This document shows positions 8,138 to 51,269 of a DNA stretch of 64,000 bases, one piece after another. Positions within the stretch are counted from its first letter, which is position 1, and every line of letters begins with the position of its first letter. The notes below the pieces were generated by a model that saw only the letters and a program-made list of their open reading frames with translations, did no database searches and was not told where the DNA came from. Source of the stretch: Bordetella genomosp. 4 (GTDB lineage: Bacteria; Pseudomonadota; Gammaproteobacteria; Burkholderiales; Burkholderiaceae_B); NCBI RefSeq assembly GCF_002261185.1, contig NZ_NEVQ01000003.1, positions 124,001-188,000 on the forward strand. Direction: 5' to 3'. The translations under genes were made by a program, and so were the position numbers.

Positions 8138-8456
8138 TGCCGTTGGGCAGGCGGGGTTCTTGAGACGTCCCGGCCGGTTGCCGTGGGCCGCACCGGCCTA
8201 ATCGGATCGGCTCGGCGCAAGACCAGGCGCCTCGGCCCCGCTACGCGGGGCTGCCCGACCCTCAAAAGGCCGGCGCGGCCCACGGCAACCGGCCGGGACT
8301 CGCAGTAATGGCTGACTGAGAACGCTGTTGCCGGTCGCGGTATTTTTCGAGCGCTTTCTGTTTTCTGGTGCGTCGATTTGTTGATGCCGTGCACATGTGT
8401 GAAGCATGTGCACGGCATTGATTTTTGTATCGCCGCTAAATCGCCGACGACAGGCC
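8138..8456. other. Gene-free gap between convergent ilvD and SDR genes
   Basis: No convincing coding frame. The gap holds the long stem-loop element at 8167-8299, plus a small dyad near 8388-8416 (CATGTGTGAAGCATGTGCACGG region). The element may end transcription from both sides, but it has no T-run. Confidence 0.7.
8167..8299. repeat. 133-bp palindromic element with 32-bp arms
   Basis: Arms 8167-8198 and 8268-8299 are complementary at 31 of 32 positions (left begins GTCCCGGCCGG, right ends CCGGCCGGGAC). The 69-base interior folds into two further hairpins: GGCGC-N8-GCGCC (8214-8231) and GCCCCGC-TAC-GCGGGGC (8235-8251). A long closing stem with two inner hairpins matches the design of the elements at 11.6 and 26 kb, but the interior sequence differs, so this is either a distant member or a separate family. 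Confidence 0.8.
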
Positions 8457-11456: not shown

Positions 11457-11817
11457 GGTGGGCAATGGGAGTATCGGAGGGAGATTGATTTTGCCATGAG
11501 GTTGCTTTTTGGGGATGGCTCATTGTCTGTGCATGGCGAGGTGTTGTTCTTTTGGCGTCGAGGAGGGGCAGTGGCCGCGTGCGGGCTTCACGTGATCGGT
11601 CGGCCGCCTGCGCGGCCGACACCGCTTCGTCAACCTTGTCGCTACGCTCCTTCGGTTTCCCTCGCTCGATCACGAGGCGCCCGCCAGGAGCGATCGGGAT
11701 GTTGATGCGTCGTACTGTGGATGCGCGGGTACGGGTCGCTACGTTCGGGTATGGGCTACAAAGTACAGGATGCAGGTCTGGGTCACGTTTGCAGGTTAAA
11801 GGGGCGGAGCCGGCATG
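11457..11817. other. Repeat-bearing intergenic region
   Basis: 361 bp without a convincing gene. It contains a member of the palindromic family (11557-11684) and, to its right, GC-rich sequence of no recognised function. Short open frames here follow the repeat and have no homology-like features. Confidence 0.7.
11557..11684 (+). repeat. Palindromic element family 1, copy C (right outer arm degraded)
   Basis: The left outer arm 11557-11586 begins GTCGA and contains GGGGCAGTGGC, closely like copy B. The inner stem pairs TTCACGTGATCG (11587-11598) with CGATCACGAGGC (11667-11678). Immediately inside is a perfect 9-bp hairpin GTCGGCCGC-CTGC-GCGGCCGAC (11599-11620). The bases upstream (TTCTTTTGGCGTCGAG) resemble those before copies A and B. 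Beyond GCCCGC the right outer arm no longer matches, so the copy is decayed on that side. Confidence 0.75.
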
Positions 11818-23418: not shown

Positions 23419-23634
23419 GAAACGCCTGCCTTGCCGTGAGTTCTTTTTAGTCGCAGGACTGCCGCAAAAACAACGCGTTTGGCAGCAAGCCAAAGGCGCA
23501 GCATCGGTTTCTTTTCGCGATGAGTCCTATTGCGAGCGTGCGGCGTCGGGCTAGCCCCATGCCGCTACTCATGGAAAATTAGAGCGGATATCGTTGAATA
23601 GTTCCCTGAACGCCAGTTGAATGGCGATGCAGCG

Positions 23635-24710: not shown

Positions 24711-25877
24711 ATGAAGATCGTCGACATCCGTGAATCGACTCGTCCGATTAAATCCAATATCCGTAACGCCTACATCGATTTTTCGAAGATGACGCTCAGC
24801 CTGGTTGCAGTGGTGACCGACGTCATCCGCGATGGTAAGCCGGTGATCGGTTACGGGTTCAATTCCAACGGGCGCTATGGCCAGGGCGGCCTGATCCGCG
24901 AGCGTTTCGCGCCGCGTGTATTACAGGCCGATCCTGCCAGCCTGCTCGACGATGAGCGCGACAACCTGGACGCCCATAAAATCTGGGCCACGATGATGAC
25001 CAACGAGAAACCTGGCGGTCATGGTGAGCGATCGGTGGCGGTGGGCACCATCGATATGGCGGTCTGGGATGCCGTCGCCAAAATCGAAGGCAAGCCCCTC
25101 TATCAACTGCTGGCCGAGCGCTATGGCAATGGCACGCCGAACCGCGACGTTTTCGTCTATGCCGCCGGTGGCTATTATTGGCCAGGGCAGGGTCTGGATG
25201 GATTGCGTCGCGAAATGCAAAGCTATCTGGATCGTGGTTATTCCGTGGTGAAAAAGAAAATCGGCGGGGCCTCTTTGGCCGAGGATTGCGAGCGGATCGA
25301 GACGGTATTGAAACTGCTCGGACCAGGGCAGCGTCTGGCTGTCGATGCCAATGGCCGCTTCGATTTAAAGACAGCGGTGGAATATGCCAAGGCGCTGTCT
25401 CAATACGACCTGTTCTGGTACGAGGAAGCTGGTGATCCGCTGGACTATGCCTTGCAGGCGGAACTGGCGAATCATTACGCAGGGCCGATGGCGACAGGTG
25501 AGAACCTGTTCTCCATGCAGGACGCGCGCAACCTCATCCGCTACGGGGGCATGCGTCCAGATCGCGATTGGCTGCAATTCGATTGTGCGTTGAGCTACGG
25601 GCTGGTGGAGTATCTGCGTACCTTGGATATGTTGAAAGAAAACGGCTGGTCGGCTTCGCGTTGCATTCCCCATGGTGGCCATCAAATGTCGCTCGCTATT
25701 GCGGCAGGGCTGGGATTGGGGGGCAATGAATCGTATCCGGATCTGTTCCAGCCCTATGGGGGGTTTCCGGATGGGGTGCAGGTCAAGGACAGTATCGTGA
25801 CCTTGCCGGAATTGCCGGGGATTGGGTTTGAGGGGAAGGCGGATTTGTATGCGGAGATGAAGGCGTTGGCGGAGTAA
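24711..25877 (+). CDS. tarD: D(-)-tartrate dehydratase, enolase superfamily
   Basis: 388-residue cytosolic Mg2+-dependent enzyme predicted to convert D-tartrate to oxaloacetate. It closely follows the characterised Bradyrhizobium TarD: IRNAYIDFSKMT at the N-terminus, GFNSNGRYGQGGLIRER, NEKPGGHGERSVAVG, the catalytic Lys motif VVKKKIGG near residue 180, metal ligands in DANGRF, WYEE and ATGEN, and the catalytic His in CIPHGGHQMS. The start at 24711 has GGAGA upstream. No transporter for tartrate is adjacent; the divergent HypT-like LysR is the likely regulator. The palindromic repeat block follows within 36 bp. Confidence 0.93.
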   Translation: MKIVDIRESTRPIKSNIRNAYIDFSKMTLSLVAVVTDVIRDGKPVIGYGFNSNGRYGQGGLIRERFAPRVLQADPASLLDDERDNLDAHKIWATMMTNEKPGGHGERSVAVGTIDMAVWDAVAKIEGKPLYQLLAERYGNGTPNRDVFVYAAGGYYWPGQGLDGLRREMQSYLDRGYSVVKKKIGGASLAEDCERIETVLKLLGPGQRLAVDANGRFDLKTAVEYAKALSQYDLFWYEEAGDPLDYALQAELANHYAGPMATGENLFSMQDARNLIRYGGMRPDRDWLQFDCALSYGLVEYLRTLDMLKENGWSASRCIPHGGHQMSLAIAAGLGLGGNESYPDLFQPYGGFPDGVQVKDSIVTLPELPGIGFEGKADLYAEMKALAE

Positions 25878-25912
25878 AGGTGTGTTGCGTGAAGGAGGGA
25901 GTTCTATTGGTC

Positions 25913-26076
25913 GTCGAGCCGAGGCAATCGGCCCGGCCGGGCTTCACAAAGTCGGTCCGGCGCGCGGGCGCCGGACACCGTGTTCGCTCGCTTCGTCCGG
26001 CCCCTTCGGGCCTCCCTTCAGCGTCCGCTCCACTCGACTTTGAGGCGCCCGGCCGGGCCGATTGCCTCGGCTCGAC
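25913..26076 (+). repeat. Palindromic element family 1, copy A (164 bp)
   Basis: Outer arms 25913-25942 and 26047-26076 are perfect 30-bp inverted repeats (outer ends GTCGAGCCGAGG / CCTCGGCTCGAC). The stem continues inward with TTCACAAAGTCG against CGACTTTGAGGC (three mismatches). Two hairpins sit inside: GTCCGGCGC-GCGG-GCGCCGGAC (25955-25976) and GGCCC-CTTC-GGGCC (25999-26012). The whole could fold as a three-way junction in DNA or RNA. Confidence 0.9.
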
Positions 26077-26101
26077 TAGCAGCAATTAGAATTCTCTGCA
26101 C

Positions 26102-26172
26102 CGCTGGCACGACTTTCTTGCTTGGCGTTTTTTCGCAGCCGCATTGGTAGAGAGAAAGATCTTGCGGTGCTG
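26102..26172 (+). repeat. 71-bp conserved flank of copy A
   Basis: Begins CGCTGGCACG, contains TTTCTTGCTTGGC and ends with GAGAAAGATCTTGC...GCTG. It matches the reverse complement of 26513-26583 at about 56 of 71 positions by eye, and both lie exactly 25 bp from their palindromic element. Confidence 0.75.
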
Positions 26173-26512
26173 CTTTCGGCGGCCGCCCTGCGCGGCCACC
26201 TCAAGCGATCGGTCCGGGCATGCGACGGGGTGGCGTGGTGCCTAGTTGGAATATCTGCTTGGCCGCGAGTGAGGCTTGCGGCGATGATGCGTAGGGCACT
26301 TTTCCCGGCGGCATATCCGTAGCATGCCCGTGTTCTGGATCAGAGTTCATCCGCGGACGTGATTTGGGCTAACCATGATGGCATTACAACGAGTGCCATG
26401 CGTGGCATTACGTCAATGTGACTCGAGAGATCTTTTGTCGAGTAACGGTGCCACAGCCTCTGCATGCAGATCCCGAACGCGGTGAGCGGGTGTGCAGGGC
26501 ACCCGCTCATCG

Positions 26513-26583
26513 CAGCCCTGCAAGATCTTTCTCTTCACCCAGACTGATGCAGAAGAATGCCAAGCAAGAAACCCGTGCCAGCG
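26513..26583 (-). repeat. 71-bp conserved flank of copy B (inverted)
   Basis: Reverse-complement partner of 26102-26172, of the same length and the same 25-bp spacing to its element. It shows that homology between the two units extends beyond the palindromes themselves. Confidence 0.75.
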
Positions 26584-26608
26584 ATGTGATGAGCTTGAGT
26601 TACTGCGA

Positions 26609-26772
26609 GTCGATGCGGGGCAGTGGCTGCGTGGGGGCGCCTCGTTGGCGAGCGGAGCGGACACCGTAGGTAGGCCCGAACGGGCCGGACGAGGTGAGCG
26701 AACGCGGTGTCCGGCGCCCGCGCGCCGGACCGTCAACGTGAAGCCCCCACGCAGCCACTGCCCCGCATCGAC
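26609..26772 (-). repeat. Palindromic element family 1, copy B (164 bp, inverted to copy A)
   Basis: Perfect 30-bp outer arms 26609-26638 and 26743-26772 (GTCGATGCGGGG ... CCCCGCATCGAC). The inner stem GCCTCGTTGGCG / CGTCAACGTGAA has mismatches at the same positions as copy A's, plus one more. Hairpins: GGCCC-GAAC-GGGCC (26673-26686) and GTCCGGCGC-CCGC-GCGCCGGAC (26709-26730). Outer-arm sequence differs strongly from copy A, yet pairing is complete. It ends 28 bp from the slmA stop. Confidence 0.9.
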
Positions 26773-26800
26773 GCCAATAGCACCAAAACCGCCCCACCCC

Positions 26801-27373
26801 CTACAACATCACCCTCAAATGCTCATCCAAATGCCCCGTAGGCACCACCCTCCACCCACTCTGCGCATACCGCAACCACCGCCCCAATACGAGATGCGTC
26901 AGCAAACTAGCCCGAGCACTGACATCCGTATCAACCGGCAGATCCCCGTTAGTCACCGCAACCCGCAGCGACTGCTTCAACGAAGCTTCAATCCGATCAT
27001 TGATGTGATTGATCCGCTCCTGCAGCCGATTATCCTCAGTCACCAGCGCATCCCCCGTCAGCACGCGCGTCATGCCTTTATTGCGTTCTGAAAACGCCAG
27101 CAGCATCGACACCGTTTTGCGCGCCTGCCCCACACCATGCGGCTCGGCTGCGACGATCTGATTGACCAGCGTGAACAGGCTGACCTCGATGAATTCGATC
27201 AGCCCCTCAAACATCTGCGCCTTGCTCGCAAAATGTCGATACAACGCTGCTTCGGATACCTGCATGCGCGCCGCCAGCGCAGCCGTGGTGATACGTGCCG
27301 CGTGTGGTTGCTCTAGCATTTCTGCCAGGGTTTGCAGGATCTGGGTCTTGCGCTCGCCGGGTTTGCTGGCCAT
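26801..27373 (-). CDS. slmA: Nucleoid occlusion factor SlmA-like TetR protein
   Basis: 190-residue TetR-fold DNA-binding protein. In E. coli, SlmA blocks FtsZ ring assembly over the nucleoid. The helix-turn-helix is at residues 28-50 (TTAALAARMQVSEAALYRHFASKAQMFEGLI), very close to SlmA. Later matches include FSERNKGMTRVLTGDAL and DNRLQERINHI. It is third in the argB-nucleotidase-slmA run, 45 bp after the nucleotidase gene, an order common in Burkholderiales. The palindrome block lies just downstream. Confidence 0.92.
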   Translation of the reverse strand: MASKPGERKTQILQTLAEMLEQPHAARITTAALAARMQVSEAALYRHFASKAQMFEGLIEFIEVSLFTLVNQIVAAEPHGVGQARKTVSMLLAFSERNKGMTRVLTGDALVTEDNRLQERINHINDRIEASLKQSLRVAVTNGDLPVDTDVSARASLLTHLVLGRWLRYAQSGWRVVPTGHLDEHLRVML

Positions 27374-45156: not shown

Positions 45157-45235
45157 AAAAAAGCCTCCACGCTGCGCCCTCGGTTGGCTGCCCTCGAGGG
45201 GGAGCTTTCTGCCTTGGGGCGGCCCGGCGGCAAAA
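45157..45235 (+). repeat. Family 2 repeat copy upstream of ptsN
   Basis: AAAAAAGCCTCCACGCTGCG, CTCGGTTGGCTGCCC, a CCCTCGAGGGGG hairpin and GGGGCGGCCCGGCGGCAA follow in order, as in the copies at 51.1 kb. It is antisense to the surrounding genes. Confidence 0.8.
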
Positions 45236-51122: not shown

Positions 51123-51168
51123 GAGCGCGCCCCCCAGGGGGCGTTTTTGTTTTGGGGCGGCCCGGCAA
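51123..51168 (+). repeat. Family 2 repeat, partial copy R1
   Basis: Right half of the element: CGCCCCCCAGGGGGCG, TTTTTGTTTTGGGGCGGCCC and GGCAA. Its first half is missing, so this looks like a partial direct duplication next to R2. Confidence 0.8.
51128..51148 (+). terminator. Rho-independent terminator of purT within repeat R1
   Basis: CGCCCCC-CA-GGGGGCG stem followed by TTTTTG. It sits about 50 bp after the purT stop and in the same direction. Confidence 0.8.
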
Positions 51169-51172
51169 GGGA

Positions 51173-51256
51173 AAAGCCCCCACGCTGCGCCTTTGGCTTG
51201 CTGCCCCCCCAGGGGGTGTTTTTGTTTTGGGGCGGCCCGGCAACAAAAAAAGCCCC
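51173..51256 (+). repeat. Family 2 repeat, full copy R2
   Basis: The most complete copy in the window: AAAAGCCCCCACGCTGCG, CCTTTGGCTTGCTG, a CCCCC..GGGGG hairpin, TTTTTGTTTTGGGGCGG, CCCGGCAAC and a closing AAAAAAAGCCCC. Used here as the reference for the family. Confidence 0.85.
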
Positions 51257-51269
51257 ACATTTGATTTTT

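Follow-up and report, generated by a model that had tools for sequence, protein, structure and literature searches.

The closest described systems are families of repeats that lie between genes and can form hairpins. The Bor repeats of Bordetella are 26-30 bp long (PMC1590033), and Bor-2 is 167 bp long, with 17 members (six of them complete) in B. bronchiseptica and an RNAz P of 1.00 (PMC2267715). The element analyzed here is like the Bor repeats (PMC1590033; Bor-1 and Bor-2, PMC2267715) in belonging to Bordetella, in being intergenic, and in forming hairpins. Bor-2 may be the same hairpin as the 164-nt one found here, the two being compared by description (a length of 167 bp). The available parts of the Bor papers describe stem-loop families, and a paired element of two halves, a small hairpin, an insertion site, and a skewed halo are absent from those descriptions. 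ERIC and YPAL share other features with the element, since they are intergenic or span gene borders, are self-complementary, and occur in many copies (PMC2267715). The length of YPAL, 168-169 bp (Table 3 of PMC2267715), is close to that of the hairpin. Unlike ERIC and YPAL, as far as they are described there, the element has two hairpins, each with a second hairpin, at the ends of a unit of ~0.8-0.9 kb (in its own genome), and its left and right arms are different.

REP sequences and the BIME and REPIN structures built from them resemble the element in having inverted pairs of palindromes, mostly near the 3' ends of genes (PMC3733652). CGTC REPs, in the accessible text of the same source, are like the element without a dedicated transposase (PMC3733652). 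The scale is different. GTAG- and CGTC-tagged REPs are units of 20-40 bp with CGTC stems of 8-9 bp, whereas the element has branched hairpins of 152-200 nt with arms of ~30 bp (PMC3733652). The GTAG or CGTC tag of a REP is unpaired, and the GTCG of the element lies inside a paired stem. Within the accessible parts of the literature on repeats of Bordetella and Achromobacter, MITEs, convergent genes, and palindrome skew, the paired element and its halo are undescribed, which is no proof of absence.

The repeat is a single element of ~886 bp with inverted ends. The window is a 64,000-nt stretch of Bordetella genomosp. 4 (genome G000 in what follows). The first-pass annotation had taken the unit to be a 164-bp palindrome, with copies named A, B, and C, and this was the wrong scale. 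Rather than two separate units, A and B form the two inverted ends of a single gene-less element, because an inverted repeat of 312 nt, 72% complementary, reaches beyond both hairpins. The features of the window are as follows (strand in parentheses where there is one).

25601..25900 (+): G/T halo on the left, which extends into the 3' portion of the MR_MLE_C (enolase-like) gene
about 25901..26786: whole element, ~886 bp, subfamily SF1, made of two inverted half-units; the conserved block in eight aligned G000 copies
25913..26076 (+): branched hairpin of the left end (A-type), 164 nt; its 30-bp outer arms pair perfectly
25955..25976 (+): the 9-bp inner hairpin on the left, identified as covarying helix 2 from folding and covariation
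26172..26206 (+): left small hairpin, 35 nt, its arms imperfect in the window copy
26223..26462: middle of the element, not common to both halves; the sign of the composition skew switches near this point
26479..26513 (-): right small hairpin, 35 nt
26609..26772 (-): branched hairpin of the right end (B-type), 164 nt, from folding and outer-arm pairing
26787..27090 (-): G/T halo on the right, with the minus strand G/T-rich; it extends into the 3' portion of the TetR/SlmA-like_C gene
11546..11694 (+): copy C, a decayed half-unit with its outer arms lost; nhmmer E 7e-20, no fold signal
8167..8299 (+): diverged hairpin of a third type, with 33-nt arms that are 97% complementary; family membership inferred from layout
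8384..8418 (+): 35-nt hairpin, 84 nt after the third-type hairpin

The element is present in many more copies than the three first seen. Besides the window copy, seven places in the genome match 872-911 of the 911 query bases at 91-94%, and in the alignment of these eight copies the conserved block runs from GTTCTATTGG-TCGTCGAG to TCGACGTCCAATAGCAC. The scanned stretches of G000 contain 66 hairpin matches, 59 of them full length. In the fetched stretches there are 24 pairs consisting of a plus-strand hairpin followed by a minus-strand hairpin 402-533 nt away, and the 19 pairs in which both hairpins are full length span 773-893 bp. Arm sequence separates two subfamilies, SF1 (~884 bp; it includes the window copy) and SF2, and left arms differ from right arms. 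Six of the 59 full units lie less than 1 kb from the start of a contig, and further contig ends also carry units, as is expected because repeats break assemblies. Three overlapping ORFs of at least 100 aa in the window element have no Pfam match at E 0.01. The element thus has three properties of MITEs, namely terminal inverted repeats, no coding capacity, and multiple copies.

Each half-unit has the same layout of two hairpins. A branched hairpin of 152-200 nt with GTC(G) at its base is followed by a linker and then by a second hairpin of ~35 nt. The anatomy reported for A and B is correct: both are 164 nt long with perfect 30-bp outer arms, and both contain the inner stem with common mismatches, the 9-bp hairpin, and GGCCC-N4-GGGCC. 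The predicted RNA folding energies of A and B are -125.2 and -123.0 kcal/mol, compared with means of -75 and -77 for dinucleotide shuffles (z -11.4 for each, and 0 of 200 shuffles fold as well). With DNA parameters the fold of A has an energy of -75.5 kcal/mol (z -11.3). A best-fit search without a random control located the small hairpin, taken as 33-38 nt with 11 or more of 15 pairs, in 85 of 87 half-units. It lies 85-96 nt inside the big hairpin, and the spacing is 93-95 nt in 76 of the 85 half-units that have one. Its pairing cells in G000 comprise 778 Watson-Crick, 29 G-T, 18 A-C, and 30 other (n=855), and those in relatives comprise 413, 0, 5, and 2, respectively. A 3-bp stem inside the big hairpin (A2 columns 81-83/111-113) switches as a set between copies, from ACC/GGT to GCT/AGC or GTC/GAC, as if small modules were exchanged.

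Other repeats in the window are decayed or more distant. Copy C is a real relative of the family by nhmmer, as had been claimed, but its outer arms no longer pair. The fold of 11550-11710 has a z of -0.22, and 77 of 200 shuffles are as good. Because the arms are unpaired and the fold is no better than shuffles, copy C reads as a decayed half-unit or end. The sequence said to stand ahead of every copy, TTGGCGTCGA, is exact at B and C, but A has TTGGTCGTCGA. Hairpins of the third type have GTCC at the base and span 133-136 nt. They occur at 8167-8299 in the window, 29 nt past a called stop codon, and at 1302-1437 of locus L246, where the hairpin follows rodA, so that both stand after gene ends. 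A separate dispersed repeat family with GGGGCGGCCCGGC and AAGCCCCCACGCTGCGCC motifs occurs at 45159-45235, 51130-51258, and 23481-23507 of the window, in both orientations and 78-93% alike.

The family extends beyond the genus. A covariance model built from 25 units found the hairpin at E <= 1e-6 in at least 27 of 151 family genomes, its own included, and in at least 10 of 43 genera; these are lower bounds because up to 19 candidates per genome were scored. A DNA search matched 8 of 31 genomes, again with its own included. Genus mates and the genus of G013 have the same layout of two hairpins and two halves with other letters, and the big hairpin of G013 is ~200 nt long. Plasmid and phage collections contain no match to the element. 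A scan of genome contigs for the inner-hairpin pattern gave 35 stretches, and the matches in unrelated phyla are probably due to chance. This pattern matches once in each of four Aeromonas species (L194, L197, L203, and L204), possibly within a conserved gene. A different short repeat, around GTGTCTGAC / GTCAGACAC, is intergenic in genus mates (L180, L237, and L241 in G008, and L236 in G001).

The shape of the hairpin is kept as its letters change. Covariation was measured on an alignment of 25 units (Bordetella only), with 56 pairs and 1394 pairing cells, against 500 shuffles and controls in which the partners were slid. In this alignment 97.8% of the cells pair. Both sides have changed in 41 of the 56 pairs, compared with 27.2 (sd 2.0) in shuffles, none of which was as high. 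The covariation score is 0.533, compared with 0.152 in shuffles (0 of 500 as high) and at most 0.072 with slid partners. Four of the five covariation measures exceed all 500 shuffles; for the remaining one (further pair types), 42 of 500 shuffles did as well. Because the rows are related, these fractions are not probabilities. All five measures exceed every slid control. The proposal that shape and not sequence is conserved is borne out by these figures.

The pairing changes with almost no wobble, which suggests that it is maintained in DNA. A one-sided wobble change keeps a pair in only two cells of the 25-row alignment. The best-fitting 30-bp outer arms of the 59 full-length G000 units, which are related copies, contain 1764 Watson-Crick, 1 G-T, and 5 other among 1770 cells. 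These arms are perfect in 54 of the 59, and in each of the remaining five a single position or two are unpaired. The outer arms of the 25-row alignment contain 0 G-T, 5 A-C, and 11 other among 750 cells, and the inner pairs, leaving aside one constant T-G, have 2 G-T, 5 A-C, and 9 other. Over the whole alignment outside that T-G there are 2 G-T cells versus 10 A-C. RNA helices normally drift through G-U, and because wobble is nearly absent here the outer arms look rewritten at the DNA level. The wobble among covarying pairs that is expected of an Rfam-type RNA is almost missing from the big hairpin. The first-pass annotation had left open a structured RNA, a transposable hairpin, and a protein-bound cruciform; the outer-arm counts disfavor the first, and the other two form the better branch.

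The position of the elements would suit an RNA module, in which a half-unit would serve a convergent gene as a 3'-UTR hairpin, terminating or protecting its transcript, as has been proposed for REP and BIME RNAs. By GC-frame gene calls, convergent genes flank 25 of 33 paired elements. The figure for G000 is 15 of 21 by frame calls and 18 of 21 after Pfam, which was applied to flanks first called non-convergent and to the two neighbors of the window copy, the other convergent flanks being frame calls. In relatives it is 10 of 12 pairs (frame-based calls). A called ORF lies no more than 117 nt from the element on 48 of 66 flanks, and of the 19 half-units that were counted as single, 14 are oriented toward their upstream gene (frame-based calls). 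The neighbors of the window copy, according to Pfam, are the MR_MLE_C (enolase-like) gene on the left and the TetR/SlmA-like_C gene on the right. An RNA module is nevertheless unlikely, given the near absence of wobble pairs. The window has no Rfam match at the gathering threshold, a tRNA search gave no matches, and a simple consensus scan for intrinsic terminators (a hairpin with a T-run) found none in 25850-26850. In addition, one copy (C16) lies between divergent genes, and copy C decays in place.

Mismatches next to the arms suggest that the folded form is recognized. Columns 32/137 and 35/134, just inside the outer arms, have a standard pair in 0 of the 25 Bordetella rows; the first is T-C in 24 rows and the second is A-A in 21. 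The hairpin of G013, from another genus, differs at these columns. Simple copying of one arm from the other would not leave such columns unpaired, and the folded form therefore seems to be recognized, not merely copied. These columns also bear on the idea of a passive repeat, a functionless palindrome kept perfect by template-switch copying at forks and spread by rare recombination or hitchhiking. Copy-correction fits the perfect arms with drifting letters and the 5 of 59 units that are imperfect, but it has left the mismatch columns uncorrected in 25 of 25 rows. The conservation of the two-hairpin, two-half layout between genera and the clean insertion of one copy (C16) also count against a passive repeat, which is rather improbable.

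Comparison of occupied and empty sites points to insertion of one SF1 copy in this lineage. The copy at C16:732634-733526 sits between the divergent globin and yqeY genes. Its matched flanks are ~970-980 bp apart in G000 and 59-99 bp apart in seven of the eight genus mates, and in the eighth (G007) they are on different contigs. Since the flanks nearly abut in seven syntenic relatives without the element, the copy is, judging by synteny, a clean insertion. No target-site duplication was readable at this copy, the intergenic DNA of the empty sites being too diverged to place the junction.

The family is older at another site, between rodA and a TetR-like gene, than at the C16 site. Both hairpins are present there in G002 and G005, the left hairpin and a remnant of the right one in G008, at least the right half (at a contig end) in G003, and a remnant in G004. 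The spacer of G006 is very short and has no hairpin. The TetR gene of G001 and G007 has different neighbors, and a hairpin of this kind was not found there. G000 retains an element at the TetR gene, whose left neighbor is the enolase-like gene. The rodA gene of G000 is elsewhere, adjoining a third-type hairpin; this was seen in a test for reciprocal exchange at rodA, which gave no simple answer. For a third copy (L070), too, the relatives that have its flanking sequences have them in separate places, and two of the three sites examined are synteny breaks.

No mobilizing enzyme was found in G000 among the two families searched, Y1_Tnp (PF01797) and Transposase_mut. Y1_Tnp is without a match (E <= 0.001) in three genomes that carry the element, G000, G003, and G007, and Transposase_mut has none in G000. 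Six of the eight genus mates do have a Y1_Tnp match, including G002, G006, and G008, which carry the element. These matches, together with the inverted pair of palindromes, the tag-like GTCG at the base, and the many copies, would agree with a giant REPIN moved by a RAYT-type Y1 transposase. This is extremely unlikely, considering that three carriers are without a PF01797 match and that the hairpins are 152-200 nt long compared with 20-40 bp for REPs (PMC3733652). A RAYT is accordingly disfavored as the mover. An IS256-type transposase is disfavored as well, since G000 has no match and the IS of this type in G066 is inserted at differing sites and in differing orientations.

Insertion sequences are nevertheless associated with some of the elements. 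G066 has an IS of the IS256 family (~1.38 kb, with 8-bp target duplications) inside or adjoining many elements (L157-L160 and L165-L169, loci chosen for long spacing), and in one case it is inserted within another copy of itself. In these loci picked for long spacing, the elements look like landing sites for the IS. In G098 (L161 and L162), decayed C-terminal pieces of IS256-type transposases, read by eye, lie between the two half-units. The pairs of G098 are 1.1-1.6 kb long and were considered as possible carriers of their own transposase, but the ORFs listed hold these decayed pieces, as read by eye. In a non-exhaustive search, the long pairs of G066 and G098 were found to hold IS256-type insertions or fragments and no gene of their own, and no gene-bearing version of the element was found.

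The DNA on both sides of the element is G/T-rich on the strand running 5' to 3' into the hairpin. In 59 units the GC skew falls with distance, from 0.72 at 12-30 nt through 0.44 and 0.32 to 0.25 at 100-150 nt, then through 0.15, 0.10, and 0.08 to 0.06 at 400-600 nt, 0.03 at 600-1100 nt, and 0.01 beyond. The T/A skew of the same units is 0.20-0.29 within 100 nt and falls to ~0.05. At 12-30 nt the fraction of C is 0.09 and that of G is 0.53. The last ~20-30 nt of the G-rich flank may be the element's own end, and the remainder is mostly coding DNA of the neighbors. The halo is repeated in G013 (15 units), G066 (17 units), and genus mates (15 units). Control gene ends called in the same genome, G000, without an element (144) have a skew of -0.04 just past the stop codon and 0.00-0.07 inside the gene. 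As a static feature of composition the halo is firm, and this strand-specific G/T gradient is new here, going beyond what the first-pass annotation had noticed.

The profile of the skew has its peak outside the hairpin and not at the center of the element. The skew continues into the half-unit, and in pairs it is down to 0.06 over the 30 nt nearest the center (38 half-elements). Among 14 single half-units, 10 have the skew reversed at 260-350 nt beyond the hairpin (mean -0.15).

Selection on transcription might also produce such a pattern. Rho prefers C-rich, G-poor RNA. A C-poor sense strand gives C-rich, G-poor antisense RNA on which Rho could load once a transcript has passed the center, and the element with its flanks would then be a two-way insulator. 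The change of sign near the element center, the convergent genes, and the base fractions at 12-30 nt are what a selected halo would look like, but 24 convergent control ends without the element lack such skew (-0.03 to 0.07). Moreover, 4 of 42 flanks have a gene reading away from the element (orientation corrected by Pfam), and on these the skew is 0.95, 0.55, 0.20, 0.12, and 0.05, then -0.04, a shorter reach of ~150 nt. Because skew is present on these flanks, gene direction alone is not the maker of the halo. An insulator under selection is very unlikely.

Derived changes support a mutational origin of the halo at the window copy. Changes were polarized by relatives. In the TetR gene there are 40 AC>GT versus 5 GT>AC changes within 300 bp of the element, at 47 of 250 sites (C>T 23, C>G 11, and A>G 6), and 8 versus 4 at 300-600 bp, at 12 of 192 sites. 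In the enolase-like gene the counts are 25 versus 5 within 300 bp (31 of 223 sites changed), 21:6 at 300-600 bp (33 of 267 sites), 25:14 at 600-1000 bp, and 24:21 beyond. The substitution rate is higher near the element on the TetR side only (47/250 vs 12/192), and the enolase-like gene has no rise in rate. For both flanks of the window copy the ratio is 65:10 within 300 bp; in the enolase-like gene on the left it is 49:35 at more than 600 bp (p 8.6e-5 by Fisher's test for the comparison). Four other flanks, both sides of L003 and L070 (the right flank of L070 polarized by only two relatives), have 40:22 within 300 bp versus 171:107 beyond 600 bp (p 0.77). The carriers G002, G003, G005, and G008 have no lineage-specific bias at the TetR site, where the count for G002 and G003 leaves out changes common to these two. 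An origin of the halo in mutation caused by the element is thus supported at the window copy and not yet in general; elsewhere, a preference for G/T-rich target sites could be its source.

Overall it appears, with a probability of about one half, that this is a non-autonomous, hairpin-ended mobile DNA element that is cut, resected, and copied through single-stranded DNA with the help of an enzyme in trans. The element would act as folded single-stranded or cruciform DNA. It would be cut, after which the 5' strands would be resected. Resection of 5' strands from a break inside the element exposes the strand running into it on both sides, and the G/T-rich strand is this 3' strand. The exposed 3' strands would then suffer changes at C and A, and C>T, C>G, and A>G on the exposed strand are what damage to single-stranded DNA would leave. 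Copying of the folded-back 3' arm would restore a perfect palindrome and rewrite the other arm. The same breaks may feed copying and recombination between copies of the element, and the enzyme that cuts or moves it would act in trans.

Precedents exist for parts of this mobile-element reading. Parvovirus-type hairpin telomeres and integron attC sites are folded single-strand sites with paired arms of free sequence, conserved unpaired bases, and T-shaped ends. They offer an analogy only, and no Rep, integrase, or capsid gene was seen with the element. In yeast, inverted repeats cause breaks and also mutations in the genes on both sides, and single-stranded DNA and resection are invoked in the available part of that study (PMC3681665). 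The halo is like this palindrome-induced mutagenesis in affecting genes on both sides, and the yeast process needs the resection-linked Sae2 (PMC3681665). The yeast case, as presented there, is experimental, eukaryotic, and extends up to 8 kb, whereas the element has a bacterial composition pattern over ~0.3-0.6 kb (PMC3681665).

A wider reading can be put forward tentatively, in which these are 'structure-only' DNA mobile elements. Their T-shaped hairpin ends would be rewritten by self-copying, and their repeated opening would write a strand-specific mutation gradient into the genes nearby. If that is true, only the shape and a few unpaired bases would be inherited, and the halo would be a readable fossil of breakage and resection at natural bacterial palindromes.

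The way of moving is obscure for many bacterial palindromic repeats. Strong covariation by itself is no proof of a functional RNA, and a shape inherited almost without wobble helps to tell DNA-level from RNA-level structure on the basis of sequence alone. The halo would be evidence that coding DNA next to a repeat is shifted by it in a predictable direction, and it makes breakage and resection in vivo at natural palindromes testable from genomes.
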